A stretch of DNA of 64,000 nucleotides from Tetracentron sinense (Eukaryota; Streptophyta; Magnoliopsida; Trochodendrales; Trochodendraceae): contig CM026554.1 in NCBI GenBank assembly GCA_015143295.1, positions 50,094,627 to 50,158,626 on the forward strand, read 5' to 3'. Made by a program: the position numbers and the translations under genes. The notes under the pieces are model-generated. The model was not told the origin of the DNA, ran no database searches, and worked only from the letters and a program-made list of their open reading frames with translations. Positions 5,123 through 59,463 of this stretch are shown here, one piece after another. Positions within the stretch are counted from its first letter, which is position 1, and each line of letters starts with the position of its first letter.

Positions 5123-5296
5123 TTAAAGATGAGCATCACATTCTAAAGTTAAATAAACCTGATTTATCCGTCCTAATAATTTCTTTCGACATAACCGGTA
5201 ACTCATTTGTGCTCTTGAAAATTTTGTTAGAAGAAGAATTACAAGCTTCTTTAGCCAAGAAATATGCACCTTGATTATTTTCTCTAAAAACATGAT
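5123..5296 (-). pseudogene. LINE RNase H (RVT_3-type) C-terminal half, split by the Tat element
   Basis: Minus-strand translation ends with the signature of plant LINE RNase H C-termini: VFRENNQGAYFLAKEA, i.e. the HxxREaNxxADxLAK motif with AD changed to AY. It is the continuation of the RNase H half at 17113-17470: the two halves join in order across Tat element 1, whose 5-bp duplication ATGAT falls at the junction. The domain would cleave RNA in RNA/DNA hybrids during LINE reverse transcription. It is inactive here because the 11.8-kb insertion interrupts it. Confidence 0.7.
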
Positions 5297-5434
5297 TGTA
5301 ACGGATAAAATTCGTAAAATCAACCCAGCATTGGAAGACGAGCTCGTTTTTTGTCGTTTTGTTCACGAAAGTGACACGTGGACACGAGTTGGGGTCACGT
5401 GCTTAAAATATAGGAGTCACACGTTATCTGATAT

Positions 5435-5612
5435 ACAACGATCCCGTTGTGCGTATTACGACGTCTTTGTTCTCATGCAGAACAATGTTTCCGTTGTGGC
5501 TTTGACAACGTGCTCGTTGTCTAAAGCACAACGTGAACGTTGTGCTCTTGACAACGTCGTTGTCGTTACGCGAACAACGAGTCCGTTGTCTCACCGACAA
5601 TGATGTCGTGCT
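5435..5612. repeat. 23-bp-period array of ACAACG-N4-CGTTGT dyads
   Basis: Sixteen-bp palindromes of the form ACAACG NNNN CGTTGT start at 5435, 5482, 5505, 5528, 5551, 5574 and 5597. A degenerate unit sits at about 5459. Spacing is 23 bp (16-bp dyad plus 7-bp linker such as GGCTTTG, CTAAAGC or CTCACCG) after the first two units. The four-base loop sequence varies while the arms stay nearly constant. Equivalent arrays lie at 16351-16528, 47764-47941, 58600-58777 and, in the solo LTR, 24083-24190. The U3 position suggests protein binding; the binder is unknown. Confidence 0.9.
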
Positions 5613-5932
5613 GTGTTTTGAGGCATCTACGCCGTAACCGAGCTTGGGTCAACAACGAGACCGACTCGTAGGAGGAAGTGATCAGGAGGCGATCCATAAT
5701 TCCGACAGGCGTGCCGAACGTGCCGTTTCGTGCCGAAAGCATTGTCTTGGCATTTAATGCTGGTCACTTCTGCGTACCGTCCGATCCCGTCCGATTGGAC
5801 TTATAGGAGGCTCTCACGTGTAATGCAACCGGCGGCAGATATGTGTAAGATATTTGGCGATGAGTGCAAAGACACGTGGTGTGGACACCTATGGCCATCC
5901 ATGGTCATCGATGGTCATACCAACCCTTGCCC

Positions 5933-5940
5933 TATAAAAA
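5933..5940 (+). promoter_or_regulatory. TATA box of the sense LTR promoter, element 1
   Basis: TATAAAAA preceded by CCTTGCCC sits about 320 bp after the dyad array and about 260 bp before the LTR end, the expected place for the U3/R boundary. The 3' LTR has the same box at 16849-16856. Element 2 has TATAAATA at 48261 and 59097. Confidence 0.75.
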
Positions 5941-6199
5941 CCCCGTGATTTTTAGTGCACAGGACACTTGTTCATTAACCCAGATCCGAGATTAAGTGTT
6001 CAGTGCTTTCAGTGCCTTGCGTATTTTTCAGTGTTTGTTCTTGTGTTTACTGTTCATCATCTTCTACCCCTACTGACTTTACCATCGGAGTACAGGTCAG
6101 GGTGCCACACCCTCCGCTCCATCCTTCTACCAGTAAACTAGAACGTGGAAGAAGCTGCTGCTGACGCGTGTCCTTCCGGTATTTTTCCCCTCACAAAAT

Positions 6200-8683: not shown

Positions 8684-11600
8684 CAGGTCGCTCCCGTTGT
8701 GGAGGAAAGCTCGGAGACATCGTTGTGCAGACCTTCCGTTGAGCCCACGAAAGCTATCAATTTGAGAACGGAAGAAGAGCCAAAAGTGTTGCAGGTCGGG
8801 ACGAGCTTGACAACGGAGGAGGAGCTCGAGTTGCTGAGTTTTCTTAGGCAGAATTTTAATGTCTTTGCATGGTCTCACAAAGACATGACTGGCATCGATC
8901 CGAGTGTTATCTGTCATCACCTCAATGTTGATCCTGCTATCCCTCCAGTGAAGCAGAAACCTCGGAGGCTTGCTCCAGCTTACCATGATGCAGTGAATGA
9001 GGAGATTGACAAGCTGATCCAGTTCGGGTTCATTCAGGAGGTGCAGTACCCCGATTGGATAGCCAATGTTGTAGCTGTGCCTAAGAAGAACGGGAAGGTG
9101 AGAGTTTGCATCGACTTCACCGGTGTCAACATGGCGTGCCCCAAGGACTTTTTTCCCATGCCAAGGATAGACAGGCTCATTAACGCCACTGCTGGCTACG
9201 AGATGTTATCCTTCATGGATGGTTATTCGGGCTATAACCAGATCCTCCTAGCGGAAGCAGATCGAGAGAAGACCACCTTTATAACAGAGCGAGGTTTGTT
9301 CTGTTATCGGGTGATGCCTTTTGGCTTGAAGAACGCAGGTGCCACCTATCAACGTCTGATGAATCTAATGTTCGGGTCGCTCCTTGGCAAGACGATTGAA
9401 GTGTACATCGACGATATCGTTGTGAAGAGTCGAGTACGAGGTACTCTGGTGGCAGACCTTGCTGAACCTTTCTCTGTGCTGCGATCTTTCAATCTGAAGA
9501 TCAACCCAGAGAAGTGCACCTTCGGAGTTACCTCAGGGGAATTTTTGGGTTATCTTGTGAGTCAGCGGGGGATTGAGGCTAATCCAGCTCAAATCCGTGC
9601 TTTGCTGGACATGCCAGAGCCTAAGTCGAAGAAGGAGATCCAGAAGCTGACAGGCCGGATTGCTGCGCTCAACCGGTTTATCTCCAAGTCATCCGATCGT
9701 TGCAAACCTCTGTTCGAGCTGCTGAGGAAGGACTCCATTTTTGCGTGGACTCCAGAGTGTTCCCGAGCTTTCCTTGCCTTGAAGGAGTATTTAGGCTCAG
9801 CTCCTATCCTTTCGGTGCCAGAGCCAGGTGAAATCTTATATCTCTATTTGTCTGTTTCAGAGCAAGCCCTTGGTTCCGTCCTGGTGAGGAGCTGTGATGG
9901 CGTGGAGAAGCCTGTCTACTTCATCAGTAAAACCTTTCTCAAGGCAGAATGCAATTATAGCAAGCTCGAGAAGGTGTGTCTGACCCTTGTCTTTTCTGCG
10001 GAGAAGCTTCGTCCGTACTTTCATGCTCATTCTATCGTTGTCATCACAACGTATCCTTTGAAAGTCGTGCTGGGACGACCCGAGCTGGCGGGGAGAATGT
10101 CAAAGTGGGCAGTAGCTCTGAGTGAGTTCGATATCCAGTACCGGGCCAGGAGCTCAGAGAAGGGGCAAGCGATGGCGGGTTTTCTTTCTGATTTCCCTGT
10201 GGAGGAGGTGGCCGAGGACATGGTTGTTGATCTTCGGGAGCTCCCAATTGAAGTTGACAACGGAGATGCCGTTGTGGAGGGGGCCGAGTCGTCGGAATGG
10301 AGCGGTTGGCTGTCATACGTGGACGGATCTTCCAATTTCAGTGCTTCGAGACTAGGCATTGTGCTCATAAGTCCGGACAACATCAAAGTGCAGAAGATGT
10401 CGCGTCTTGGGTTCACTGCCTCCAACAACGAAGCTGAGTACGAAGCTTTACTCCTTGGGTTGGAGAGTGCACGAGAGCTGCAGATCTCCACGTTGAGAGT
10501 GTTTTGTGATTCACAGCTCGTGGTGAATCAGGTGAATGGTGTTTATGAATGCAAGGACGACCGGATGAAGCAGTATGCTACTCTCGTTCGTTCGTTGTGT
10601 GAAACATTCACCGTTGTGGAGATCAGGCATACCCGAAGAGATGACAACAGGCATGCTAATGCTCTAGCGTATCTAGCTTCCATGGTGCAGGCTGACGAGC
10701 CTAAGGCTATTCTGATGGAGTTCCAAGAGTATCCTTCGATAACTCTTCAGGCACAGCGAGAAGTGTTCTTTGTCAATCCAGTCCCGAGCTGGATGACAGG
10801 GTTGGTAGCTTATCTAAAGGACGGAGTTCTCCCTATCAGTGTGAAGGAGTCGAGGCGCATTCAGTTCAAGGCATCTCGTTATACCTTGGTGCAAGGAGAA
10901 TTGTTCAGGAAATCTTTTGGTGGTCCCTTGCTGAAGTGTGTTCATCCTGTAGACGTGGAGAGAATACTTGCTGAGCTACATGAAGGTATATGTGACATTC
11001 ATTCGGGCGGGAGAACCATTGCCCATCGAGCTCTGGGGCAAGGTTACTTCTGGCCTTATATGCAGGCCGATGCTCAGAAGTATGTGAAGAGGTGCAGCCA
11101 GTGCCAGCGGTTTGCTCGCTTGATCCATGCTCCAGCTCAAGAGCTCAGCACTGTATCTCAGCCTTGGCCGTTTGCGCGGTGGGGACTTGATATTGTGGGA
11201 CCTTTCCCGAGGGCTCCAGGGAATCTGATCTTTCTTCTAGTGGCAACTGACTACTTCTCTCGGTGGATTGAAGCTGTTCCCCTTGCACGTATCAGAGAAC
11301 AAGAGGTGAAGAAGTTCTTGTGGGAGCATATCATCTGCAGATTTGGCATACCGCAGTCCATCAATACTGACAACGGGAAGCAGTTCTCAGGACGTTTGAT
11401 TGCCGACTTTTGCAGCGAGCTGAAGATAAAACATGTCTTCTCTTCCCCATATTATCCCCAGGGGAATGGATTGGCTGAGGCAGCCAACAAGAATATTCTC
11501 AATGCCTTGAAGAGAAGACTGGAAGATTCGAAGGGGATCGAAGTGGACCGCTGAGCTGCACAACATTTTGTGGGGGTACAGAACGACTCCAAGGAGCCCT

Positions 11601-12419: not shown

Positions 12420-12780
12420 CAGTGCTTGCTCGTAGTGCTTGTTCATAAGCGATTGCTCGTAGTGCTTTGCTCATAGTGATTGATCGTGGTGCTTGCTCGT
12501 AGTGTTAGCTCGTAGTGCTTTGATCGTAGTGCTTTGCTCTTGGTGAACGCTCATAGCGAACGCTCGTAGTGCTTTGCACGTAGTGTTTGCTCGTGGTGCT
12601 TGCTCGTAGTGCTTTGATTGTGGTGTTTGCTCGTAGTGCTTTGATCGTAGTGCTTTGATCGTAGTGTTTTGATCGTAGTGCTCTATTCGTAGTAATCTAC
12701 TTGTAGTGCTTGTTCGTTGTGCTTTGATCATAGCGTTCTACTCATAGTGTTCTGCTCATAGTGTTTTGATCAAAACAGTT
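12420..12780. repeat. TCGTAGTG-rich tandem repeat spacer, element 1
   Basis: About twenty short units built on GCTCGTAGTGCTTTG and variants (ATCGTAGTG, CTCATAGTG), spaced roughly 13-17 bp apart. They lie between the end of pol (12042) and the end of the antisense gene (13118), where the two transcription units converge. The 12043-12420 stretch before it is non-coding and similar in both elements. A related but rearranged block occurs in element 2. Confidence 0.8.
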
Positions 12781-13117: not shown

Positions 13118-15597
13118 TCAGACGAGCTCAAGATCAGCATCTATCATCGTTGCAGCAGGAGCAGGAGTAGAGGATTCAGCAGTCGGGGCTTCCACCGGAG
13201 TAACTTCATCGGCAGCAGAGAGTTCTGGGGCAGCTGGCTCGGAGGATGGCTCGGCCGGGAGGGGTGCAGGACCTTCAAGAAAGTGAGGCAGCTCGACGCC
13301 TTGTACCTCGGGCTCGTTGTCGAGCTCGATCAGTTCTTTACTCGGAAGCTCGAAGAACGTGGTTACGTCCTCTTCATTGTCTTCTTTCAAGCGTCCTTGT
13401 TGGCGGAGTGATTCGAGAACCTCCTTCTCGGTCTCAGCCCGATCTTCGTCCAAGAGCGTGTCCAGCTGAGACTGATAGTGCTGTTGCAGTCTCAGGGTCA
13501 CGGACCTCTCGGTGTCCTCTTGGGCTCTCTTGGCCTCCTCGAGCTCCTCCGCCAGTGCTGTCCTGGCTGCCTCAGTCTCCTCCAGCTGTCTGCCCAAGAC
13601 TTGGGAGACATGCTCCAGCTCGTTGATGCGTACAACAACGTTCTCTACCTCCTGCTTGGCCTTCTTTTCGGCCTCCTTTGCTGATCGTGCCTCAGCCTCA
13701 GCCTTCTCCCGTACCTTGGTGGCAGTGTTTAGCCTTACCTCAGCACGAACAGTATCAGCCTTGGATTGAGACAGATCAAAGTCTGCCTTGAGTCTCTCTT
13801 CAACGAGAGTCTGCTCCAACGTCTCCGTCCTATCCTTCCAGTAATTGATCCCATCTCGCAGCTGGGTGTACTTATTTTGGTTGCGATCGCAGAGCTCTTG
13901 CACGAGCGCGTTCATCTGCAAGGAAGTGTCTGGGCGTTAGCACAACGAAAAGTAATATTTCAACAGTTGAGGAAGAGGACGAGAGAGGGAGAAGCTTACT
14001 GTCGCCACCGACTGGCAGGCGGCGTAGGACAACTCGGACAGTTGGAGTTTGCCGACCTCAGCGATGTCCCGAGGTAACCTCATCGCGTAAGTTAGAGCTC
14101 GGGCGGCCTTCTCCGAGCTCTTCACCGATTCGTTCACGATCGGTGCACCGAACTGAGAAAAGTCGGGTGACCAGTGCTGAACGAAGGACGGCAGCATACT
14201 AGCCGGGAGACTCGTTGTGCCGGCTTCCGTTGCGGCCAATGCAACCACAGCGGAGCTCGTGCTGGCGAGGGCAGTGGCAGCTCGAGAAGGGCCAGGCGCC
14301 GAGCTGGCCTCGGGCACTGCCGTTATCACCTCTGCTCTTGGACTTGTTGGAGGAGCGGCAGAGGTGGAAGGGGGAGCAGCAACGACTACGCTCTCTTTCT
14401 CCAGGCGTTTGTCCGCCTTGGCCTTCTTTCTGGCCTCGTACTCGGCCTGGGTGGGCATCTTTCTCTTCGGGTCAGCAGTCGCTGTACCCTTGGAAGAGTG
14501 GCTCCTCTTCTTCTTTGGCGGTGGTGGCAGTGGTGGCAGCTGAACCACAGGGCGAGCAGACCTCGGCTTCCTGCTTAGCGGGGGTGGATTTGTGTCAGTC
14601 ATGTCTTCTTCTTCTTCTTCTTCAGCTAGATGAAGGGCTGGTGAAGGTGCGGAGGTGGAGGCGCCTTGTTGCTGTCGCTGTTGCTGTTGTTGTGGCTGTT
14701 GTTGAGTAGTTGCTGGAGTGCTGGAGGAGACCCGCGTGTCAGGGTTGAGTGGTTTCCACCTGATGTATTCCCCACCTCGAGCACGGCGGATACCAGTAAG
14801 GAGGCCTTCTTCTTCTGGGGCTAACTTCTTGTATGGGAACTTCTTCGGGTCAACTGTACACAGGAAAGCCAAATGAGTACAACGAGAGTTAGTAAGACGA
14901 AAGCATTCAACGCACAACGAGAACAGAGTCAGGACAATGGTGCACAACGGACAACGGGTGACTATAGTGGTATACCTGCTTCCACTCGGAAGACGTTGGG
15001 GACCGTGGAACTCTCCGCCTTCCAGCCGCCAGAGACAACGAAAGGAGTGGCTTTCCACTTTCTTTCTCTATCGAGGATGCCTGAGACGAGCTCTAGATAT
15101 AGGGGTTTCTTGTTCCACGAGTAATAGGAGTACAAACCATCGTCATTGCCTCGGCATCTGACGGCATGGCAGAAGTGGAATAGGTGCCTAGCCTCTATTG
15201 GGTATCCGTCCTTGATGAATTTGATCATCATGGACATGTACTTGTGGAAACCCGGGTGCATTTGTCCCGGTGCGAGTTGCAGGCTGGACAGGACTTCATC
15301 CAAGACAGGATGGAGGGGGAAGCGAAGGCCAGCCTCAAGCTGGGAGAGATAGACAATGGTACAGGCAGAGCGCCTATCTATAATAGCATCATCTCGCATG
15401 AAATGGAGATTGACGTTGGAAGGGAAGTCGAAACGTTCTCTGTAACGGTTCAGATGTGCCAACTGGTGTTGGCGCAGAGCTGAGGATTTTTCAACATAGG
15501 CACCATGAGGTGCGCTACCTGTGCAACTGGCCTCATCATCGGAAGGGCCTCTAACTTCCTCTAACCTAGCGGGTTCTACGGGAACGATGACGGCCAT
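13118..15597 (-). CDS. Antisense gene of Tat element 1, three exons, 757 aa
   Basis: ATG at 15597 with context ACCATGG. Inferred exons: 15597-14976, 14853-14000 and 13915-13118. All introns are GT-AG with matching phases (1, then 0), giving 757 codons plus stop and no in-frame stops. Residues about 40-200 match the gypsy-type antisense family known as putative plant transposon protein (Transposase_28-like), with QLEAGLRFPLHP and LAPGQMHPG. Residues about 210-400 are Ser/Pro/Gln-rich with basic, nuclear-signal-like runs (KKKRSHSSKG, DPKRK, ARKKAKADKR). Residues about 500-680 form a long Glu/Lys/Ala coiled coil, followed by an acidic tail. The role is unknown; nuclear location and oligomerisation are inferences. 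Exon 1 and the splice sites are conserved in element 2. Confidence 0.8.
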
Positions 15598-15865
15598 GGT
15601 GATTGGAAGAAACAGCGAAGAGGGGCAAAAACAGTAAACAGAGCAACAGAGTATACAGAGCAGAATCACTCTGAGAATCAGAGAAGAGAGAAATGGAGAA
15701 ACAGTAAAGAAATAATAAGAGATAGGGGTGAAGGGCGTACCGAACCAAAGAACTCAGAGAGATTGTTGAAGAGCTTGAGGAAGATGAACTTTCGGATGAG
15801 AAGAGAATTCGGCAGAGTAACAGTGCTTGATGAAACAGGGTGAAAGAAAAGGAGGATTCGGTGGG

Positions 15866-16200: not shown

Positions 16201-16212
16201 AAAGGGACAAAT
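16201..16212 (+). promoter_or_regulatory. Polypurine tract, element 1
   Basis: AAAGGGACAAAT directly precedes the 3' LTR start at 16213. Element 2 has AAAGGGGCAAAT. This is the expected primer for plus-strand DNA synthesis, although shorter and less pure than typical tracts. Confidence 0.65.
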
Positions 16213-17112
16213 TGTAATGGATAAAATTCGTAAAATCAACCCAGCGTTGGAAGACGAGCTCGTTTTTTGTCGTTTTGTTCACGAAAGTGACACGTGGGCA
16301 CGAGTTGGGGTCACGTGCTTAAAATATAGGGGTCACACGTTGTCTGATATACAACGATCCCGTTGTGCGCATTACGACGTCTTTGTTCTCATGCAGAACA
16401 ACATTTCCGTTGTGGCTTTGACAACGTGCTCGTTGTCTAAAGCACAACGTGAACGTTGTGCTCTTGACAACGTCGTTGTCGTTACGCGAACAACGAGTCT
16501 GTTGTCTCACCGACAACGATGTCGTGCTGTGTTTTGAGGCATCTACGCCGTAACCGAGCTTGGGTCAACAACGAGACCGACTCGTAGGAGGAAGTGATCA
16601 GGAGGCGATCCATAATTCCGACAGGCGTGCCGAACGTGCCGTTTCGTGCCGAAAGCACTGTCTTGGCATTTAATGCTGGTCACTTCTGCGTACCGTCCGA
16701 TCCCGTCCGATTGGACTTATAGGAGGCTCTCACGTGTAATGCAACCGGCGGCAGATATGTGTAAGATATTTGGCGATGAGTGCAAAGACACGTGGTGTGG
16801 ACACCTATGGTCATCCATGGTCATCGATGGCCATACCAACCCTTGCCCTATAAAAACCCCTTGATTTTTAGTGCACAGGACACTTGTTCATTAATCCAGA
16901 TCCGAGATTAAGTGTTCAGTGTTTTCAGTGCCTTGCGTATTTTTTCAGTGTTTGTTCTTGTGTTTACTGTTCATCATCTTCTACCCCTACTGACTTTACC
17001 ATCGGAGTACAGGTCAGGGTGCCACACCCTCCGTTCCATCCTTCTACCAGTAAACTAGAACGTGGAAGAAGCTGCTGCTGACGCGTGTCCTTCCGATATT
17101 TTTCCCCTCACA
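16213..17112 (+). repeat. 3' LTR of element 1
   Basis: A 900-bp copy of 5297-6195, starting TGTAATGG and ending CTCACA, followed by the TSD ATGAT. The dyad array (16351-16528) and TATA (16849-16856) are retained. Some arms differ from the 5' copy: the 3' LTR is intact at one dyad that is mutated in the 5' LTR, and the reverse holds for another. Confidence 0.95.
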
Positions 17113-17470
17113 ATGATTAAAACTGCATTTTTCTTTCAACCGAATAATTTCCTTCCTCTAGTATCAGGCCTTCTACAGGGTCTCAACTATATCATTAATC
17201 CCATCAATCGTTAATTTGGAGTCATTTTCTACCTGGATATTTTATAAGCCCAATTTATCACAAAACTTGTACCCATCATGAATGCTTCTATTATTGGAAC
17301 CCGGCCCATAGAACAATTGGAATGTCATAATTACACTACCATTCGCATCTCGGCTAATTTCCCCACCTCCACTAATATTTGAATTATCCTTAGAAGCTCC
17401 ATTAACATTTTATTTGAACTAGCCCATTGGCAGCGCTAACCATTTAGTAACAATGGGAGTTACAACCTCA
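17113..17470 (-). pseudogene. LINE RNase H (RVT_3-type) N-terminal half
   Basis: Minus-strand reading gives KWLALPMG, then NGASKDNSNISGGGEISRD, YGPGSNN and later VENDSKLTIDGIN. These are the plant LINE RNase H blocks for the first Asp (here Asn for the usual Asp-Gly), the GGGGIIRD turn and the DS motif. The protein then runs into the TSD at 17113-17117 and resumes at 5296. In-frame stops (a TGG to TAG just before the domain, and others) show it was already decaying. Confidence 0.7.
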
Positions 17471-22879: not shown

Positions 22880-23264
22880 GGTACCTCTAAGGTGCCATAA
22901 GAATAAACTTTGGCACTTACTCCAAAAGGACCATATTAATGGAGGAGTTGTAGACCTTATACACCCCATGCGGAAATCGAGACCCAACCAAAGTGTATCA
23001 TGTTTGGTTTAGACGTTGGAGAAAATCAATTATTTGTAGAAAAGTGGTTTATGTTAATAATTATGTTTGGGTCATATAGAAGTACAAATTGTTTATTACA
23101 AAGCCCTACATAATTACTCAAAGGGAAAAAATCCCGTACATGCCACGCGTCTGTAGCTCTTAGCTGGTAGAGGAATGATAGCCCAACTCCACCTGTGAAT
23201 AAGCCTGAGGGGGCGGGTGTGCACCCTGAAATAAGCTCCGATGATAAAGTCAGTATAAGGCACT

Positions 23265-23400
23265 AACACATGATAAGGCACAAGCACATGATAAAGCACA
23301 CAAGGCACAAGCACGGTATAAGGCACAAGCACATGATAAGGCACAAGACACAAGCACAGTATAAGACACAAGCACATGATAAGGCACAAGGCACAAGAAT
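23265..23400. repeat. Irregular AAGGCACAAGCACATGAT repeats in the solo LTR
   Basis: About seven variants of AAGGCACAAGCACATGATA and AGGCACAAGCACAGTATA occur head to tail with uneven spacing. Non-coding. Confidence 0.7.
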
Positions 23401-23421
23401 AGTATAGAGATACTTACCGTG

Positions 23422-23585
23422 AGGTCACTGGGTATATGCACTTGAGGAAGAGCTCTGGTGAGGCACTGGGCATATGCACTTGAGGGCGAGCTCTAGTGAG
23501 GCACTGGGCATATGCTCTTGAGGACAAGCTCTGGTGAGGCACTGGGCATATGCACTTGAGGACGAGCTCTGATGAGGCACTGAGG
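23422..23585. repeat. 38-bp tandem repeat in the solo LTR
   Basis: Units beginning AGGCACTGGGCATATG start at 23461, 23499 and 23537, and an altered one at 23575, so the period is 38 bp. A diverged first copy starts at about 23422. Confidence 0.8.
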
Positions 23586-23591
23586 ACGCAG

Positions 23592-24003
23592 CTCGGAAGG
23601 CACTGAGGACGCAGCTCACATAGCTCGGACAAGGCACTGGCAACGTGGCTCGGAAGGCACTGAGGACGCAGCTCACGTAGCTCGGACAAGGCACTGGCAA
23701 TGTAGCTCGGAAGGCACTGAGGACGCAGCTCACATAGCTCGGACAAGGCACTGACAACGTAGCTCAGAAGGCACTGAGGACGCAGCTCACATAGCTCGGA
23801 CAAGGCACTGGAAACGTCGCTCGGAAGGCACTGAGGACGCAGCTCACATAGCTCGAACAAGGCACTGGCAACGTGGCTCGGAAGGCACTGAGGACGCAGC
23901 TCACATAGCTCGGACAAGGCACTGGCAACGTAGCTCGGAAGGCACTGAGGACGCAGCTCACATAGCTCGGACAAGGCACTGGCAACGTAGCTCGGAAGGC
24001 ACT
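23592..24003. repeat. 57-bp tandem repeat, about seven copies, in the solo LTR
   Basis: Units opening CTCGGAAGGCACTGAGGACG start at 23592, 23649, 23706, 23763, 23820, 23877 and 23934, with a partial copy at 23991. Because 57 is a multiple of three, the minus strand stays open and gives a false 19-residue repeat protein. I regard it as non-coding LTR expansion. Confidence 0.88.
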
Positions 24004-24082
24004 GGCAACGTATAGACAACGTACTCTGATAACGTAGCTCTAGCTCAGATAACGTAGCTCTGACAACGTAACTCTAGCTCTG

Positions 24083-24190
24083 ATGACGCATACATTGTGC
24101 ATCAGACAACGGGTTCGTCGTGTAGCAGACAACGTGTACGTTGTTCAGCAAACGACGTGTACGTTGTACATCAGACAATGGACAACGAGC
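24083..24190. repeat. Dyad array in the solo LTR, 23-bp period
   Basis: Units start at 24083, 24106, 24129, 24152 and 24175. The clearest are ACAACGTGTACGTTGT and ACGACGTGTACGTTGT, with 7-bp linkers such as TCAGCAA and ACATCAG. The arm sequence, N4 loop and 23-bp period are the same as in elements 1 and 2, although the surrounding LTR is otherwise unlike them. From 24200 to 24360 further ACAACG copies continue inside a GGTTCGGCACCATTCAC repeat. Confidence 0.85.
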
Positions 24191-24611
24191 TCGGCACCAT
24201 GCACAACTCAGCGTGACAACGGATTCGGCACCATTCACCGCAGACAACGCCACAACGGGTTCGGCACCATTCACTGCGTCAGGCAACGCCACAACGGGTT
24301 CGGCACCATTCACAGCAGATTCGGCACCATTCACAGCACAACGTATTCGGCACTATTCACAGCGTTAGACACAAGCTCAAGTATGATTGCACTCACCAGA
24401 TGATTAACTGCAAGGCCGTGCTAGTGGCAGTGTGACCATTCAGGGAGGGCATCAGGCGGACATGGCCTATTTGAGAGACTTCGGTGGCCACAAACGATCG
24501 TGAAGCCATAAAGAGCATCAAATAGTCGGATAACACCAAAGAAGATGAGAGAATCAGATGAGTGGCCGCCTGCACAGCACTTCAGGGGAGGAGTGTGAGT
24601 GACTCAAGCCT

Positions 24612-24680
24612 CTCAGATCTCCCTCTTCCTCTTCCTCTTCCTCTTCCTCTTCCTCTTCCTCTTTCTCTTCTTCTTCTTCT
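24612..24680. repeat. (CTCTTC)n microsatellite in the solo LTR
   Basis: An almost pure CTCTTC hexamer run, then CTT repeats. It creates a spurious Arg/Glu/Lys-rich minus-strand frame and a Leu/Pro/Ser-rich plus-strand frame. Confidence 0.9.
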
Positions 24681-25733
24681 CTTGATCTCCTCTCTTGCCT
24701 TTAGCACTATCATCTTTGTCTTTAGCACCATCCTCCTTCCTCTTCTTCTGCCCTTTCTCTCCTTTCTTGCCTTTTTCCTCATCCATCGCACCATCATCCA
24801 TCCCTTCTCTCTGGTGGTTCTTGCTTATTTACAGGCATTTGGAGTCATCATGACTTGTGCACTCATGATAAGATCACCTGACAGATAACACTCAAGTGAG
24901 CCAGCACATAGCCCAAGTGGGCTTATGACGGCTAAAATGTCAGAATTTGTGAGCATGAGAAATCACTATTTTATCCCTTCTTTTTACTCCTTTTTACGAA
25001 TTTTATCCGTTACAATTACCTTTTATTATATATATACAAAAAAAACTTATCCAAAAGCATGCATATTTTGGGATAATTACTTATCATAGTGCGGATGAAA
25101 ATGAGAGTATTATGATTTTACCATATTCAATTGTTATTTAAATAATATGAATAACATTCAAATGAATTCATATAATCATAAAGTTTTGTTCAATTATCAT
25201 TCAAGAATTATGGTAATTGTTTCTTATTAGGTAGTTTAAAAAAAATTTCTTTTGCAAAATTAACATCCCTCTTGATTTGAAATAATGTAATTTTTACATA
25301 TCAATTTTGATAAATCGATTTTTTTTAAATCAACCAAAAGCCCTAATTTCTTCCTTTTTGTATTACTGAAAGAATCATGATGCAATGCACCATCTTACTC
25401 ATGAGAAAGATGGGAGAGATGGGCACACTGCACAAAAAATACACTGACAGATGTCCACGTAAAGGGTGCACCTTAATTTTCCAGCTTGACCCATGGTTAG
25501 AAGTGTCCTATGTCAGTCTGATTTATGGCCTTTGCCCCACTGAGAGGTGGCTTGCCTACCAGTTGGTGAGAGACATAGTCGGTCGGTGGCATGTTGTATA
25601 TCAGAAATGCTAAGCAAGTGTCAGCCCATCTCCCTGTCATAGGTTACAGATTAGCAACCCGTGTTGCACACTGTGTTGTGAAAAATAATTGACCTATTAA
25701 AAATGGGTTTATTTGGGAGTACCCGTAGGCTAA

Positions 25734-47500: not shown

Positions 47501-47626
47501 GCTTGCAAGATCCGCTATCTTTCTAGCTTATAATCTTGTCCACCATAGACCATTTTGCGTATCTTTCCCCAAAATATAGAAAAATACATTTCCTTATTGA
47601 CATTTGAATACTATTAACAATAATAT

Positions 47627-48622
47627 TGTAACGGGTAAAATTCGTAAAATCAACTCAGCGTTGGAGAACGAGCTCGTTTTCGTTGATTTGTTCACGAAAG
47701 TGACACGTGGACACGAGTTGGGGTCACGGGCTTAAAATAGAGGGGTCACACGTTGTCTGATGCACAACGATCCCGTTGTGCGCATTACGGCGTCTTTGTT
47801 CTCTTGCAGAACAACGTTTCCGTTGTGGCTTTGACAACGTGCTCGTTGTCTAAAGCACAACGTGACTGTTGTACTCTTGACAACGTCTTTGTCGTTACAT
47901 GAACAACGAGTCCGTTGTCTCACCGACAACGATGTCGTGCTGTGTTTTAAGACATCTACACAATAACCGAGCTCGGGTCAACAACGAGACCGACTCGTAT
48001 GAGGAAGTGATCGGGAGGCGATCCATATTTCTGACAGGCGTGCCGAAAACACTGTTGCGTGCCGAAAGCACTGTCTTGGCATTTAATGCTGGTCACTTCT
48101 GCGTACTGTCCGATCCCGTCCGATTTGACTTATAGGAGACTCTCGCGTGTGATGCAACCGGCGGCAAATATGACTTGACATATTTGACAATGAGTGCAAA
48201 ACACGTGGTATGGACACCTATGGCCATCCATGGTCATCGATGGCCATACCAGCCTTACCCTATAAATACCCCGTGATTTTTAGTGCATAGGGACACACGT
48301 TTTGAATCACGTTGGATCACGTTCAATCACGTTTTTATCACCTGAACACACGTTTTGGCCATACTTCAGAGCATACTTGTTCAGTGCTTCCCAGTGCCTT
48401 GCGTAGCTTTCTGTGCCTCTTTCAGTGTTTACTATTCATCATCTTCTACCCCTACTGACTTTAGCATCGGAGTACAGGTCAGGGTGTCACACCCTCCACT
48501 CCAACCTTCTACCAGTAAACCAGAGCGTGGGAGAAGCTGTAGCTGAAGCGTGTCCTTTCTGGAGTTTTGCTGTGGGAGAAGCAGCAGTCGACGCGTGTCC
48601 TTTCCGGAGTTTTTCCCTCATA
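47627..48622 (+). repeat. 5' LTR of element 2
   Basis: A 996-bp direct repeat of 58463-59458, starting TGTAACGGGTAAAATTCG and ending TCCCTCATA (CTCACA in the 3' copy). The dyad array is at 47764-47941 and TATAAATA at 48261-48268. It is about 95 bp longer than the element 1 LTR, mainly through an AATCACGTT repeat just after the TATA region (48303-48355) and a duplicated GACGCGTGTCCTTTC block near the end. Confidence 0.95.
47764..47941. repeat. Dyad array, element 2 5' LTR
   Basis: ACAACG starts at 47764, 47811, 47834 and 47857, and then two further units at 23-bp steps. It is the same architecture as in element 1 but with the second unit intact (ACAACGTTTCCGTTGT) and different decayed arms. 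Confidence 0.9.
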
Positions 48623-48627
48623 AATAT

Positions 48628-54832: not shown

Positions 54833-55055
54833 GTAAGTGCTTTGCTCGTAGTGCCAGTTCGTAGTGCATGATCGTAGTGATAGCTCGTAGTGCTTTGTTC
54901 ATAGTGCATGATCGTAGTGCCAGTTCGTAGTGCATGATCGTAGTGCTTAGCTCGTAGTGCTTAGCTCGTAGTGCATTGTTCGTAGTGCATGACTCGTAGT
55001 GCGTGATCGTAGTGTTTCGCTCGTAGTGCTTGCTCGTAGTGCTTTGATCGAAATA
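54833..55055. repeat. TCGTAGTG-rich tandem repeat spacer, element 2
   Basis: About 15 units of CTCGTAGTGC / ATCGTAGTGCATG between the end of pol and the end of the antisense gene. Same motif but different unit order and number from 12420-12780, so the array evolves by slippage. Confidence 0.8.
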
Positions 55056-55376: not shown

Positions 55377-57846
55377 TCAGACGAGCTCAAGATCAGCATC
55401 TATCGTCGTTGCAGCAGGGGCAGAAGCAGAAGCTTCAGCAGTTGGGGTTTCCCCTGGAGTAGCTTCATCGGCAGCAACAGAAACTTCGGGAGCAGCTGGC
55501 TCGGAGTATGGCTCAGCAGGGAGGGGTGCAGGACCTTCGAGAGAGTGAGGTTGCTCGACGCCTTGGACCTCGGCCTCGTCGTCTAGCTCGATCAAGTCTT
55601 TACTCTGAAGCTCGGAGACCGTGATGGCGTCCTCTTCGTTGTCTATTTTCAGACGACCTTGTTGGCGGAGCGATTCGAGTAGCTCTTTCTCCGTCTCTGG
55701 CCGATCCTCATCCAAGAGCGTGTCCAGCTGAGATTGATAGTGTTGTTCCAATCTCAGGGTCACGGACCTCTCGGTGTCCTCTTGAGCTTTCTTGGCCTCC
55801 TCGAGCTCCTCTGCCAGTGCTGTCCTGGCTGCCTCAGCCTCCTCCAACTGTCTGCCCAAAACTTGGGAGACGTGCTCCAGCTCGCTGATGCGTAGAACAG
55901 CGTTCTCAACCTCCTGCTTGGCCTTCTTCTCGGCCTCCTTTGCTGACCGTGTCTCAGCCTCAGCTTTTTCTTGTGCTTTGGTGGCAGTTTTCAACTTCAC
56001 CTCAGCACGAACAGCGTCAGCTTTGGCTTGAGTCAGATCGAAGTCTGCCTTGAGCCTCTCTTCAACGAGAGTCTGCTCCAGCGTCTCAGTCCTGCCCTTC
56101 CAGTAGGTGATCCCGTCTCAGAGGTGATTGTAGCTATATTGGCTACGATCACAGAGTTCCTGCACGAGCACGTTCATCTGCAAGGAAGTGTCCGGGCGTT
56201 AGTACAACGAGGAGTAAAGTTTCAGCAATAGAGTAAGAAGGAGAGGAAGTGAGAAACTTACTGTCGCCACAGACTGGCAGGCGGCGTAGGACAGATCAGA
56301 CAAATGGAGTTTGCCGACTTCAGCGATGTCCCGGGGCAACCTCATCGCATGAGTCAGAGCTCGGGCGGTCTTCTCCGAACTCTGCACCGACTCGTTCACA
56401 GTCGGTATCCCGAACCGAGAGAAGTCGGGCGACCAATCCTAAACGCTCGTCGGAAGCATACGAGCTGGAAGACTCGTTGTGCCAGCTCCCGTTGCGGCCA
56501 GGGCAACCACAGTCGAACTCGTGCTGGCTGGGGCAGTTGCAGCTCGAGAGGGGGCAAGTGCCGAGCTGGCTTCAGGCACCGCCGTTGTCACCTCTGCTCC
56601 TGGACTTGCTGCAGGAACGGCAGAGGTGGAGGGGGGAGCAGCAATGGCTGCGTTCTCTCTCTCCATGCGTTTGTCCGCCTTCGCCTTCTTTCTGGCCTCG
56701 TACTCGGCCTGGGTCGGCATCTTCCTCTTCGGGTCAGCAGTCGTTGTACCCTTGGAAGGAGGGTTCTTCCTCTTCTTCGGCAGTGGTGGCGGTGGTGGAA
56801 GCTGAGCTGCAGGGCGAGCAGACCTTGGCTTCCTGCTCAACGGAGGTGGATCCATGCCAGCCATGTCTTCTTCTTCTTCGGATAAATGAAGTGCTGGTGA
56901 AGGTGCAGAAGTAGAAGCCAAACAGCCTGGATGCTGTTGCTGTGGTTGTCGTCGTTGAGCTGTTGCAGCGGGAGTGCTAAGGGCGACCCGCGTGTCAGGC
57001 TCCAGTGGTTTCCAGCGGATGTATTCCCCACCTCGAGCACGTTGGATACCGGTAAGGAGGCCTTCTTCTTTTGGGGCCAACTTCTTGTATGGGATCTTCT
57101 TTGCGTCAACTGCACATAGAAAAGCAGAATGAGTACAACGAGAGATAGCAAGACGAAAACGTATAACGAGAGCAGGGTCAGGACAATGGTGCACAACGGA
57201 CAACGGACGACTATAGTGGTATACCTGCTTCCGCTCGGAAGACGTTGGGGACCGTGGAATTCTCTGCCTTCCAGCCGCCAGAGACAACGAAAGGGATGGC
57301 TTTCCACCTTCTTTCTCTATCGAGAATGCCTGAGACGAGCTCTGGATATCGAGGTTTCTTGTTCCACGAGTAGTAGGAGAGCAAATCATCGTCATTGCCT
57401 CGGCATCTGACGGCATGGCAGAAGTGGAATAGATGCCTAGCCTCTATTGGGTAACCGTCCTTGATGAATTTGATCATCATGGACATGTATTTGTGGAAGC
57501 TCGGGTGCATTTGTCCCGGTGCGAGTTGCAGGGTGGACAGAACTTCATCCAGGACGGGATGAAGAGGGAAACGGAGGCCAGCCTCAAGTTGGGAGAGGTA
57601 AACGACGGTACAGGCAGAACGCCTATCTATGATAGCGTCATCTCGCTTGAAGTGGAGATTGACGTTGGAAGGGAAGTCGAAACGTTCCCTGTAGTGGTTC
57701 AGATGTGCCAACTGATGTTGGCGCAGAGCTGAGGATTTTTCGATGTAGGCACCATGAGGTGCACTACCTGTGCAACTGGCCTCATCATCAGTAGGGCCTC
57801 TAACTTCCTCTAACCTAGCGGGTTCTACGGGAATGATGGCAGTCAT
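55377..57846 (-). pseudogene. Antisense gene of Tat element 2, two nonsense mutations
   Basis: Same three-exon plan as element 1: 57846-57225, 57109-56262 and 56177-55377, with conserved GT-AG sites and identical exon 1 length (622 nt). TAG at 56441-56439 replaces a Gln codon in exon 2, and TGA at 56120-56118 replaces an Arg codon in exon 3. Both are C to T on the coding strand. Otherwise the frame is open, including the N-terminal transposon-protein domain, the basic KKRK / DPKRK region and the C-terminal coiled coil. It lies between the repeat spacer and the 3' LTR, convergent with pol. Confidence 0.8.
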
Positions 57847-58115
57847 AGTGATTGGAAGAAATAGGGAAAAAGGGACAAGAACAGTGAACAGAGTAACGGA
57901 GTGTACACGGAGCAGAATCACTCCAAGAACCAGAGAAGAGAGAAAGGGAGAAACAGTAAGAAATAATAAGAGAAAGGGGGAAGAGCGTACCGAACAGAAG
58001 ACGACTGAGAGACTGTTGAGAGCTTGAGGAAGATGAACTTTCGGTTGAGGAAGAAATTCGGCAGAGTAGCAGTGCTTGAAGGAACAGGGTGAAAGAGAAG
58101 GAGGATTCGGTGGGG

Positions 58116-58125
58116 ATTTTATAAA
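58116..58125 (-). promoter_or_regulatory. TATA box of the antisense gene, element 2
   Basis: Minus-strand TTTATAAAATC at the same distance (about 270 nt) upstream of the antisense ATG as in element 1, within otherwise variable leader sequence. Confidence 0.6.
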
Positions 58126-58450
58126 CATCTCAGATTTGTGAAAATACACCACTACCCTCCATCACAGCCGTACACCTGTGTCAAAGGGGAGAAGAGCAGT
58201 GGCAAGATCGTCTTTTCACCAAAAGAGAGTAACCGTCAGAGTTATTAAAGCATTTTGAAATTCGAATCGGCGATAATGACAGCCTGTCCGCATTAAAGAG
58301 ACATGACGGTTCGCACGCGCAACCAGCTGGCGTGAACGGTCGAACTTCTCAGTGAGCGTTTTAAACACGCAACGTTACATCTTCCGGAGCAGTGCCAGGT
58401 ATGATCTTTTTGTTCGTTTATGACGCTTCGAACTACGTTCCAAGCATCAT

Positions 58451-58462
58451 AAAGGGGCAAAT
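58451..58462 (+). promoter_or_regulatory. Polypurine tract, element 2
   Basis: AAAGGGGCAAAT directly before the 3' LTR. Confidence 0.65.
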
Positions 58463-59458
58463 TGTAACGGGTAAAATTCGTAAAATCAACTCAGCGTTGG
58501 AGAACGAGCTCGTTTTCGTTGATTTGTTCACGAAAGTGACACGTGGACACGAGTTGGGGTCACGTACTTAAAATAGAGGGGTCACACGTTGTCTGATGCA
58601 CAACGATCCCGTTGTGCGCATTACGGCGTCTTTGTTCTCTTGCAGAACAACGTTTCCGTTGTGGCTTTGACAACGTGCTCGTTGTCTAAAGCACAACGTG
58701 ACCGTTGTACTCTTGACAACGTCTTTGTCGTTACATGAACAACGAGTCCGTTGTCTCACCGACAACGATGTCGTGCTGTGTTTTAAGACATCTACACAAT
58801 AACCGAGCTCGGGTCAACAACGAGACCGACTCGTATGAGGAAGTGATCGGGAGGCGATCCATATTTCTGACAGGCGTGCCGAAAACACTGTTGCGTGCCG
58901 AAAGCACTGTCTTGGCATTTAATGCTGGTCACTTCTGCGTACTGTCCGATCTCGTCCGATTGGACTTATAGGAGACTCTCGCGTGTGATGCAACCGGCGG
59001 CAGATATGACTTGACATATTTGGCAATGAGTGCAAAACACGTGGTATGGACACCTATGGCCATCCATGGTCATCGATAGCCATACCAGCCTTACCCTATA
59101 AATACCCCGTGATTTTTAGTGCATAGGGACACACGTTTTGAATCACGTTGGATCACGTTCAATCACGTTTTTATCACCGGAACACACGTTTTCGCCATAC
59201 TTCAGAGCATACTTGTTCAGTGCTTCCCAGTGCCTTGCGTAGCTTTAGGTGCCTCTTTCAGTGTTTACTATTCATCATCTTCTACCCCTACTGACTTTAG
59301 CATCGGAGTACAGGTCAGGGTGTCACACCCTCCACTCCAACCTTCTACCAGTAAACCAGAGCGTGGGAGAAGCTGTAGCTGACGCGTGTCCTTTCTGGAG
59401 TTTTGCTGTGGGAGAAGCAGCAGTCGACGCGTGTCCTTTCCGGAGTTTTTCCCTCACA
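58463..59458 (+). repeat. 3' LTR of element 2
   Basis: A 996-bp copy of 47627-48622 ending CCTCACA. Dyad array at 58600-58777, TATAAATA at 59097-59104. Followed by the duplicated site AGTAT. Confidence 0.95.
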
Positions 59459-59463
59459 AGTAT

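Follow-up and report, generated by a model that had tools for sequence, protein, structure and literature searches.

A conserved 23-bp lattice of dyad half-sites in LTR retrotransposons of Tetracentron sinense, with an element-encoded antisense protein as a candidate reader

What could maintain a regular row of 16-bp dyads, constant in their arms and free in their centres, inside the LTRs of a retrotransposon? We addressed this question in a stretch of 64,000 nucleotides of Tetracentron sinense DNA (hereafter the window), where two elements and a solo LTR carry arrays of the dyad ACAACG-N4-CGTTGT (Table 1). Exact dyads were found where the original prediction had placed them in the 5′ LTR of element 1, starting at positions 5435, 5505, 5528 and 5574, together with imperfect units at 5482 (one mismatch), 5551 (two) and 5597 (three). 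The same period and arms had been claimed for both LTRs of both elements, and the register indeed repeats in the remaining three (16351-16528, 47764-47941 and 58600-58777). In total, the window holds 77 dyad matches with up to three mismatches, compared with a mean of 18.3 in 100 shuffles (sd 4.3, max 29). The strict 23-bp step of the prediction did not survive, as the first good dyad of each window LTR is separated from the second by 47 bp, with a decayed unit between them, and further steps occur in a larger sample (see below). Its estimate of eight or so palindromes per LTR is reached only when degenerate units are counted; at two mismatches or fewer there are six or seven, three to five of them exact.

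Table 1. Coordinates of the LTRs, arrays and antisense reading frames in the window.
Feature	Position	Strand	Remark
Duplication ATGAT (5-bp), left of element 1	5292-5296		read from sequence
5′ LTR, element 1 (type I)	5297..6195	+	self-match 5295-6196 / 16211-17113, 97.9%; termini read
Array, element 1 5′ LTR	5422..5612	+	dyads 5435, 5482, 5505, 5528, 5551, 5574
Right half-site opening element 1 5′ LTR array	5422	+	decayed to CGTTAT
Half-decayed unit closing element 1 5′ LTR array	5597	+	
First antisense ORF piece, element 1	14962..15597	-	PF04195 22.0 bits, cut-off 26.2 (ORF 14962-15753)
3′ LTR, element 1	16213..17112	+	self-match
Array, element 1 3′ LTR	16338..16528	+	
Duplication ATGAT, right of element 1	17113-17117		read from sequence
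Duplication ATTAC (5-bp) around solo LTR	23113-23117 and 25015-25019		read from sequence
Solo LTR, type II, diverged relative	23118..25014	-	terminus 23/23; ends read
Array, type II solo LTR	24083..24187	-	24129 exact; two further dyads at one mismatch and one at three
Half-site of solo-LTR array	24182	-	
5′ LTR, element 2	47627..48622	+	self-match 47625-48627 / 58461-59463, 98.5%; ends read
Array, element 2 5′ LTR	47751..47941	+	
Later frame, antisense region of element 2	55377..56117	-	coiled-coil look by eye
First antisense ORF piece, element 2	57211..57849	-	PF04195 21.6 bits, cut-off 26.2 (ORF 57211-58161); candidate binder
3′ LTR, element 2	58463..59458	+	self-match; ends read
Array, element 2 3′ LTR	58587..58777	+	

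The flanks of element 2 (AATAT on the left, AGTAT on the right) are identical at four of five positions. We also observed that one left arm has suffered two different CpG losses in the LTR pair of element 1, reading ACAATG at 5482-5487 and ACAACA at 16398-16403, which is the expectation for decay of methylated cytosines after insertion.

Next, we scanned the host genome (1.16 Gb, 1479 contigs), using as control the same pattern reversed, not complemented. Exact dyads numbered 19,785 against 190 in the control. Loop spacings of 3 and 5 yielded 236 (control 27) and 73 (control 64) matches, respectively. The pair of arms facing each other across the linker, CGTTGT-N7-ACAACG, was as frequent as the dyad itself (19,935; control 87); a linker spacing of 8 gave 121 matches, and the higher control count of 1,531 presumably comes from another repeat. 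Dyads with the left arm of the following unit in place at 23 bp were found 10,419 times on the forward and 10,526 times on the reverse strand, a perfect neighbour pair being scored once per strand, and never in the controls. The same two spacings prevailed in the 51 type I and 44 type II LTRs described below, where loop spacings 3 and 5 were absent (290 cases of spacing 4) and linker spacing 6 occurred 15 times (305 cases of spacing 7). Since both the loop and the linker are fixed in length, the array is better described as a lattice of alternating half-sites than as a row of isolated dyads. A scan of viral contigs for a half-site plus a dyad gave two places with one exact dyad each, which we take as chance matches. 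Separately, we noticed a distinct repeat that uses the same arms at loop spacing 5 (ACAACGTGTAACGTTGT or its reverse complement), mostly in 70-bp steps; among the matches listed, it occurs at C8:28770730, 28770800 and 28770870 and at C3:15693802-15694075.

We then asked in which sequences the lattice resides. The 23-bp LTR terminus was found 6,080 times in the genome with up to three mismatches (3,081 and 2,999 by strand; controls 5 and 10). From 100 listed exact matches on contigs C1 and C2, seven of which were already in the sample, 80 LTRs were taken out of the other 93. Far from being absent from most copies of the family, the array, counted as at least two dyads in step (two mismatches or fewer, first 1500 bp), was present in 68 of these 80 terminus-chosen LTRs, and 64 had three or more; no chain of two dyads was seen in the other 12. 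None of 59 permutations of the arms produced an LTR with two dyads in step. In the reverse test, the first 100 listed dyads fell into 23 places on C1, and all 22 places examined sit in LTRs with this terminus (five mismatches or fewer). Within the sampled places, the lattice is thus restricted to a single kind of LTR.

The full set of 107 LTRs (80 terminus-chosen, 22 dyad-chosen and five from the window) comprised 51 of type I, 44 of type II and 12 that fitted neither rule. In type I, the array lies about 100-360 bp from the LTR start and is followed by CTATAAA in 43 of the 51, at a median of 341 bp past the last dyad (range 311-379); the CpG observed/expected ratio is 1.87 within the array, compared with 1.16 over the remaining part of the first 620 bp. 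Type II LTRs are long and carry the array at about 570-1000. In 30 of the 44, TATAAATA stands near 181, at a median of 515 bp upstream of the first dyad, and only one of the 44 has such a TATA downstream of the array. These positions show that the lattice may occupy either side of the TATA. Steps between dyads with at most one mismatch in type I LTRs were mainly 23 bp (97 cases) and 46/47 bp (82), with 16 cases of 22 bp, and the main steps in type II were 23 (99) and 34 (24). The type I array usually opens with an orphan CGTTGT (exact in 44/51) and closes with an orphan ACAACG (41/51); exact orphan half-sites were found in type II at the left end in 26/44 and at the right end in 3/44.

The window solo LTR, which had been described as unrelated-looking, is a diverged type II relative on the minus strand, its terminus matching the element 1 terminus at all 23 positions; a separate origin of its array was ruled out on this ground. 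The flanking ATTAC duplication identifies it as a genuine solo LTR. In BLASTN comparisons of element 1 with this LTR, the matches listed at E < 0.001 covered the 5′ terminus, a U5 piece (37 of 45 bases in common) and the array, and a weaker match was found near the LTR end (E 0.018). Type II LTRs additionally carry about 18 extra CGTTGT half-sites per LTR outside the dyads, in tandem repeats that follow them (for example, window 23419-24080 on the minus strand, L020 and L021). These extra sites are strongly biased in orientation, with 17.9 CGTTGT versus 1.0 ACAACG per LTR and 0.47 per strand in shuffled sequence.

Two short elements were also analysed. The only type II element examined whole, L006 (1013-5900, plus strand), has kept its LTRs, PBS and array, and none of the gag, pol or antisense query pieces matched it by tblastn; the type I element L014 (2235-4832, minus strand) matched gag only and kept its array. 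It appears from these two that non-autonomous copies keep the lattice. Many of the listed LTR termini are separated by 2.6-3.1 kb from another on the same strand, so short elements of this kind may be common.

We next compared changes after insertion with divergence between lineages. Mutation after insertion was estimated from 24 neighbouring same-strand LTR pairs, taken as 5′ and 3′ LTRs by position and likeness, the flanking duplications having been checked for the two window elements only. One pair without array (L079/L080) was left out, and the 23 pairs counted include one (L054/L055, 92%) that may not be a true 5′/3′ pair. Changes were observed at 34 of 1,620 arm positions, 5 of 537 loop positions, 26 of 947 linker positions and 312 of 13,444 positions outside, with arms defined, here as well as between lineages, by motif likeness in at least one copy, a bias that is thus common to both comparisons. 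Hence, the arms changed at 2.1% and their surroundings at 2.3% (arms versus outside, p = 0.66; arms versus loops plus linkers, p = 1.0), which rules out a mutational cold spot in the arms; the loops were below the outside (p = 0.04).

Between type I lineages, the divergence was 6.6% in the arms, 30% in the loops, 22% in the linkers and 16% outside, measured on disjoint pairs of type I LTRs whose sequences beyond the array differ by 10-25%; of 200 random pairings, 167 supplied 17 to 19 such pairs. A McDonald-Kreitman-like table for one pairing of 18 pairs gave p = 3e-6, a value to be read with the relatedness of the LTRs, the shared history of the pairs and a possible partial constraint on the outside positions in mind. 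Information content pointed in the same direction. Interior units, placed by their neighbours only, contained 1.64 bits per position in the arms, 0.45 in the loops and 0.29 in the linkers of type I (63 distinct units), and 1.75, 1.42 and 1.32 bits, respectively, in type II (41 distinct units), where arm conservation is only modestly above that of loops and linkers. When edge units were added, the contrast shrank, the values becoming 0.78, 0.32 and 0.18 for type I and 0.50, 0.35 and 0.32 for type II. The high loop and linker values suggest that type II arrays are younger, and they weigh less as evidence.

As the arms are unprotected after insertion and conserved between lineages, we concluded that they are under purifying selection in replicating lineages and are not a product of slippage. 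The original prediction had read constant arms with free loops as selected half-sites; this holds between lineages, where the arms are better kept than either loops or linkers, and it does not extend to inserted copies. Gene conversion confined to the arms could in principle also lie behind the conservation between lineages. A functionless minisatellite, produced by slippage or unequal exchange, would account for the freshly amplified look of the interior units of type II arrays, for the other tandem repeats in the window's type II LTR and for unit numbers that differ among copies. It does not account for type I arrays, in which loops and linkers have drifted and the arms have not, and we rejected functionless slippage on the contrast between lineages and inserted copies; a minisatellite origin of this sort appears very improbable to us. 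As a separate observation, the loops (for example, window 5441-5444 and 5511-5514) reach about twice the between-lineage divergence of the other positions within the first 430 bp of the LTR (30% versus 16%) and did not change faster after insertion (5/537), which may reflect exchange of units or selection for loop diversity.

The selected arms could act in RNA or in DNA. The original prediction had named RNA hairpins as an alternative, and the dyads could form such hairpins in the element RNA for packaging, stability or small-RNA production, in the manner of Sirevirus palindromes. The predicted folding of the arrays is more stable than that of dinucleotide-shuffled sequences (z -4.2 and -3.8), as would be expected of any dyad array; transcription includes the U3 at the 3′ end of the RNA and, in type II, would place the array in the 5′ leader as well, and the available text on maize links LTR palindromes to small RNAs (PMC10760457). 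The pattern of substitutions did not follow this expectation. Among 95 single changes in distinct contexts, arm transitions that keep a G-U wobble and those that break the stem were nearly equal (39 versus 44), in a test whose power is low because many arm changes are post-insertion decay, and among variants inherited in at least three of 40 LTRs, again a weak test, three keep the stem, two break it and three are transversions. The predicted folds pair neighbouring units instead of forming one hairpin per unit, and a fixed linker spacing would be needless for hairpins. No Rfam family exceeded its gathering score; the best match was mir-210 with 32.7 bits on the minus strand (gathering 50) and 27.0 on the plus strand, and we regard these sub-threshold matches as a side effect of the dyads. 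We therefore consider the RNA hairpin unlikely, if somewhat less so than the minisatellite.

The reading that we prefer is that a dimeric or oligomeric protein recognises the array as double-stranded DNA, to which we assign a probability of about 0.85. The half-sites CGTTGT and ACAACG, alternating at spacings of 4 and 7 bp, would be read cooperatively by a dimeric protein, with one dimer on each dyad. Within a dyad the half-site centres are 10 bp apart, close to one helical turn; across the linker the distance is 13 bp, and adjacent dimers would be kept in register at 23 bp. This geometry suggests a dimer on one face of the DNA with its neighbours in a fixed register.

Which protein might read the lattice? 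The original prediction had pointed to the antisense protein of the element itself. In both window elements, an antisense ORF sits between pol and the 3′ LTR; its first pieces, 91% identical between the two, match the Transposase_28/TRP28 family (PF04195) weakly. The later frame of element 2 gave weak profile matches only (CUX1_N, E 0.007, below cut-off). Gene order, an antisense TRP28 and tandem repeats together suggest that the elements belong to the Retand/Tat lineage of Ty3/gypsy: the window shows the gypsy domain order at 8699-11554 (RVT_1, RNase H families, rve), and tandem repeats, a feature of about half of the Retand clusters, lie between pol and the 3′ LTR at 12421-12771 and 54836-55050. 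In both elements these repeats have a AGTGCTTTGCTCGT-like unit and precede the antisense ORF. In the accessible part of a survey of such elements, TRP28 is reported from 97% of the Retand clusters that have been active recently; its domain is predicted to bind DNA, the function being called unknown by the author (PMC11963269).

We searched the genome for PF04195 and obtained at least 23 matches, the listed ones above the cut-off, when 150 of 1,515 candidates were scored. The flanks towards the 3′ LTR were inspected for eight of the 23 (ranks 1-5 and 8-10). An LTR terminus (seven mismatches or fewer) was present in seven flanks and three or more dyads in step in six; of the remaining two, L108 had one dyad and L103 none within 2.6 kb. 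The antisense protein as binder is supported by this co-occurrence and by the predicted DNA binding in the available text of PMC11963269, and is weakened by the PF04195 scores of the window pieces, which are below the cut-off. With the antisense piece as query, a protein search gave 136 candidates, none at E <= 0.001, and the single PDB hit had an E of 0.89; the structure model of the piece had a pLDDT of 37. Across five array-bearing loci, the identity of the antisense piece falls from 91% to 64% and the arms are unchanged, so that reader and motif show no sign of changing together. On balance, we put the antisense TRP28 (Transposase_28) as reader of the lattice at slightly under even odds. 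If it is the reader, TRP28 would act in trans on all lattice-bearing LTRs, those of non-autonomous relatives included, and its binding could switch on, de-silence or autoregulate the LTR.

Host factors read repeated LTR motifs in Tnt1 and Tto1, and the lattice could likewise be an enhancer made of sites for a dimeric host transcription factor, with the antisense protein uninvolved. The place of the type I array upstream of CTATAAA is an ordinary one for an enhancer, and constant arms beside a variable antisense piece would be natural in this case. A host factor fits the lineage specificity too. It is less readily reconciled with the type II array, which follows its TATA, with the finding that every dyad place examined lies in this one kind of LTR, and with loop and linker spacings that are both fixed across several units. 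A plant factor that recognises precisely this 16-bp site is not known to us. LTR cis-boxes are, according to the sections of PMC2829016 that deal with them, often sites for stress-related DNA-binding factors. All in all, a host factor is a plausible reader, somewhat short of being probable and nearly on a par with TRP28, the leading candidate. With about the confidence given to the host factor, we tentatively propose a two-part self-recognition system of Retand elements, in which dimers of the antisense TRP28/coiled-coil protein would bind cooperatively along the lattice of its own LTRs and activate or de-silence them, and non-autonomous relatives would exploit it while keeping little beyond LTR termini, PBS and array.

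We compared the lattice with known systems. Short protein sites repeated at or near element ends are found in En/Spm (TnpA sites) and in the LTR repeats of Tnt1 and Tto1; their sequence and geometry differ from those of the present array. Arrays of palindromes in the LTRs of Sireviruses and element-encoded motif readers in VANDAL are already known from the texts available (PMC2829016; PMC5735166). In the portions at hand, the RM boxes of Sireviruses are likewise many short dyad copies in an LTR, CpG-rich and shortly upstream of the TATA, with arms that are kept while the remaining LTR diverges, and are thought to be regulatory (PMC2829016; PMC10760457). Their Tnd-1 motif, ACAATCGATTGT, resembles the ACAACG/CGTTGT dyad and also lacks the CGG-CCG core that all other RMs listed there possess (PMC2829016). 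However, Sireviruses are Ty1/copia elements (PMC2829016), and those portions describe no fixed step for the boxes (PMC2829016; PMC10760457), whereas the array studied here belongs to Ty3/gypsy elements and combines a CGTTGT/ACAACG core with a free 4-bp loop and a 23-bp lattice. Moreover, the likeness of a CpG-rich palindrome cluster upstream of the TATA applies to type I only, as the type II array follows the TATA.

The antisense TRP28 ORFs of Retand elements also lie between pol and the 3′ LTR with tandem repeats nearby, and DNA binding and a regulatory role have been proposed for them; in the available text of these descriptions, neither a target site nor a dyad array in the LTR is named (PMC11963269; PMC7264820). 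Nor did we find such an array described for Retand or Tat LTRs in the open-licence literature, taken without supplements. A conserved and regularly spaced motif in the LTRs of these elements offers a concrete target for the function of the antisense TRP28. If instead a host factor binds, the arrays, whose exact dyads in this genome alone exceed 19,000, would still provide a large natural series for the evolution of regulatory arrays.

Besides the Sirevirus palindromes, the nearest known system is VANDAL, in which a short motif is also repeated in the non-coding parts of a protein-encoding element, and VANC21 binds its own motif and lifts silencing, as far as the accessible text goes (PMC5735166). 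In the same text, VANC motifs have one orientation, are not described as palindromes and differ among related families (PMC5735166), unlike the arms studied here, which form dyads and stay constant across diverged LTRs beside antisense pieces that are 64-91% identical at five loci. Binding has been demonstrated for VANC21 (PMC5735166), whereas TRP28 is a candidate reader by co-occurrence in six of eight flanks. If the proposal is true, the lattice and its antisense protein would be the LTR-retrotransposon counterpart of VANC, with non-autonomous elements keeping the trans-acting site.
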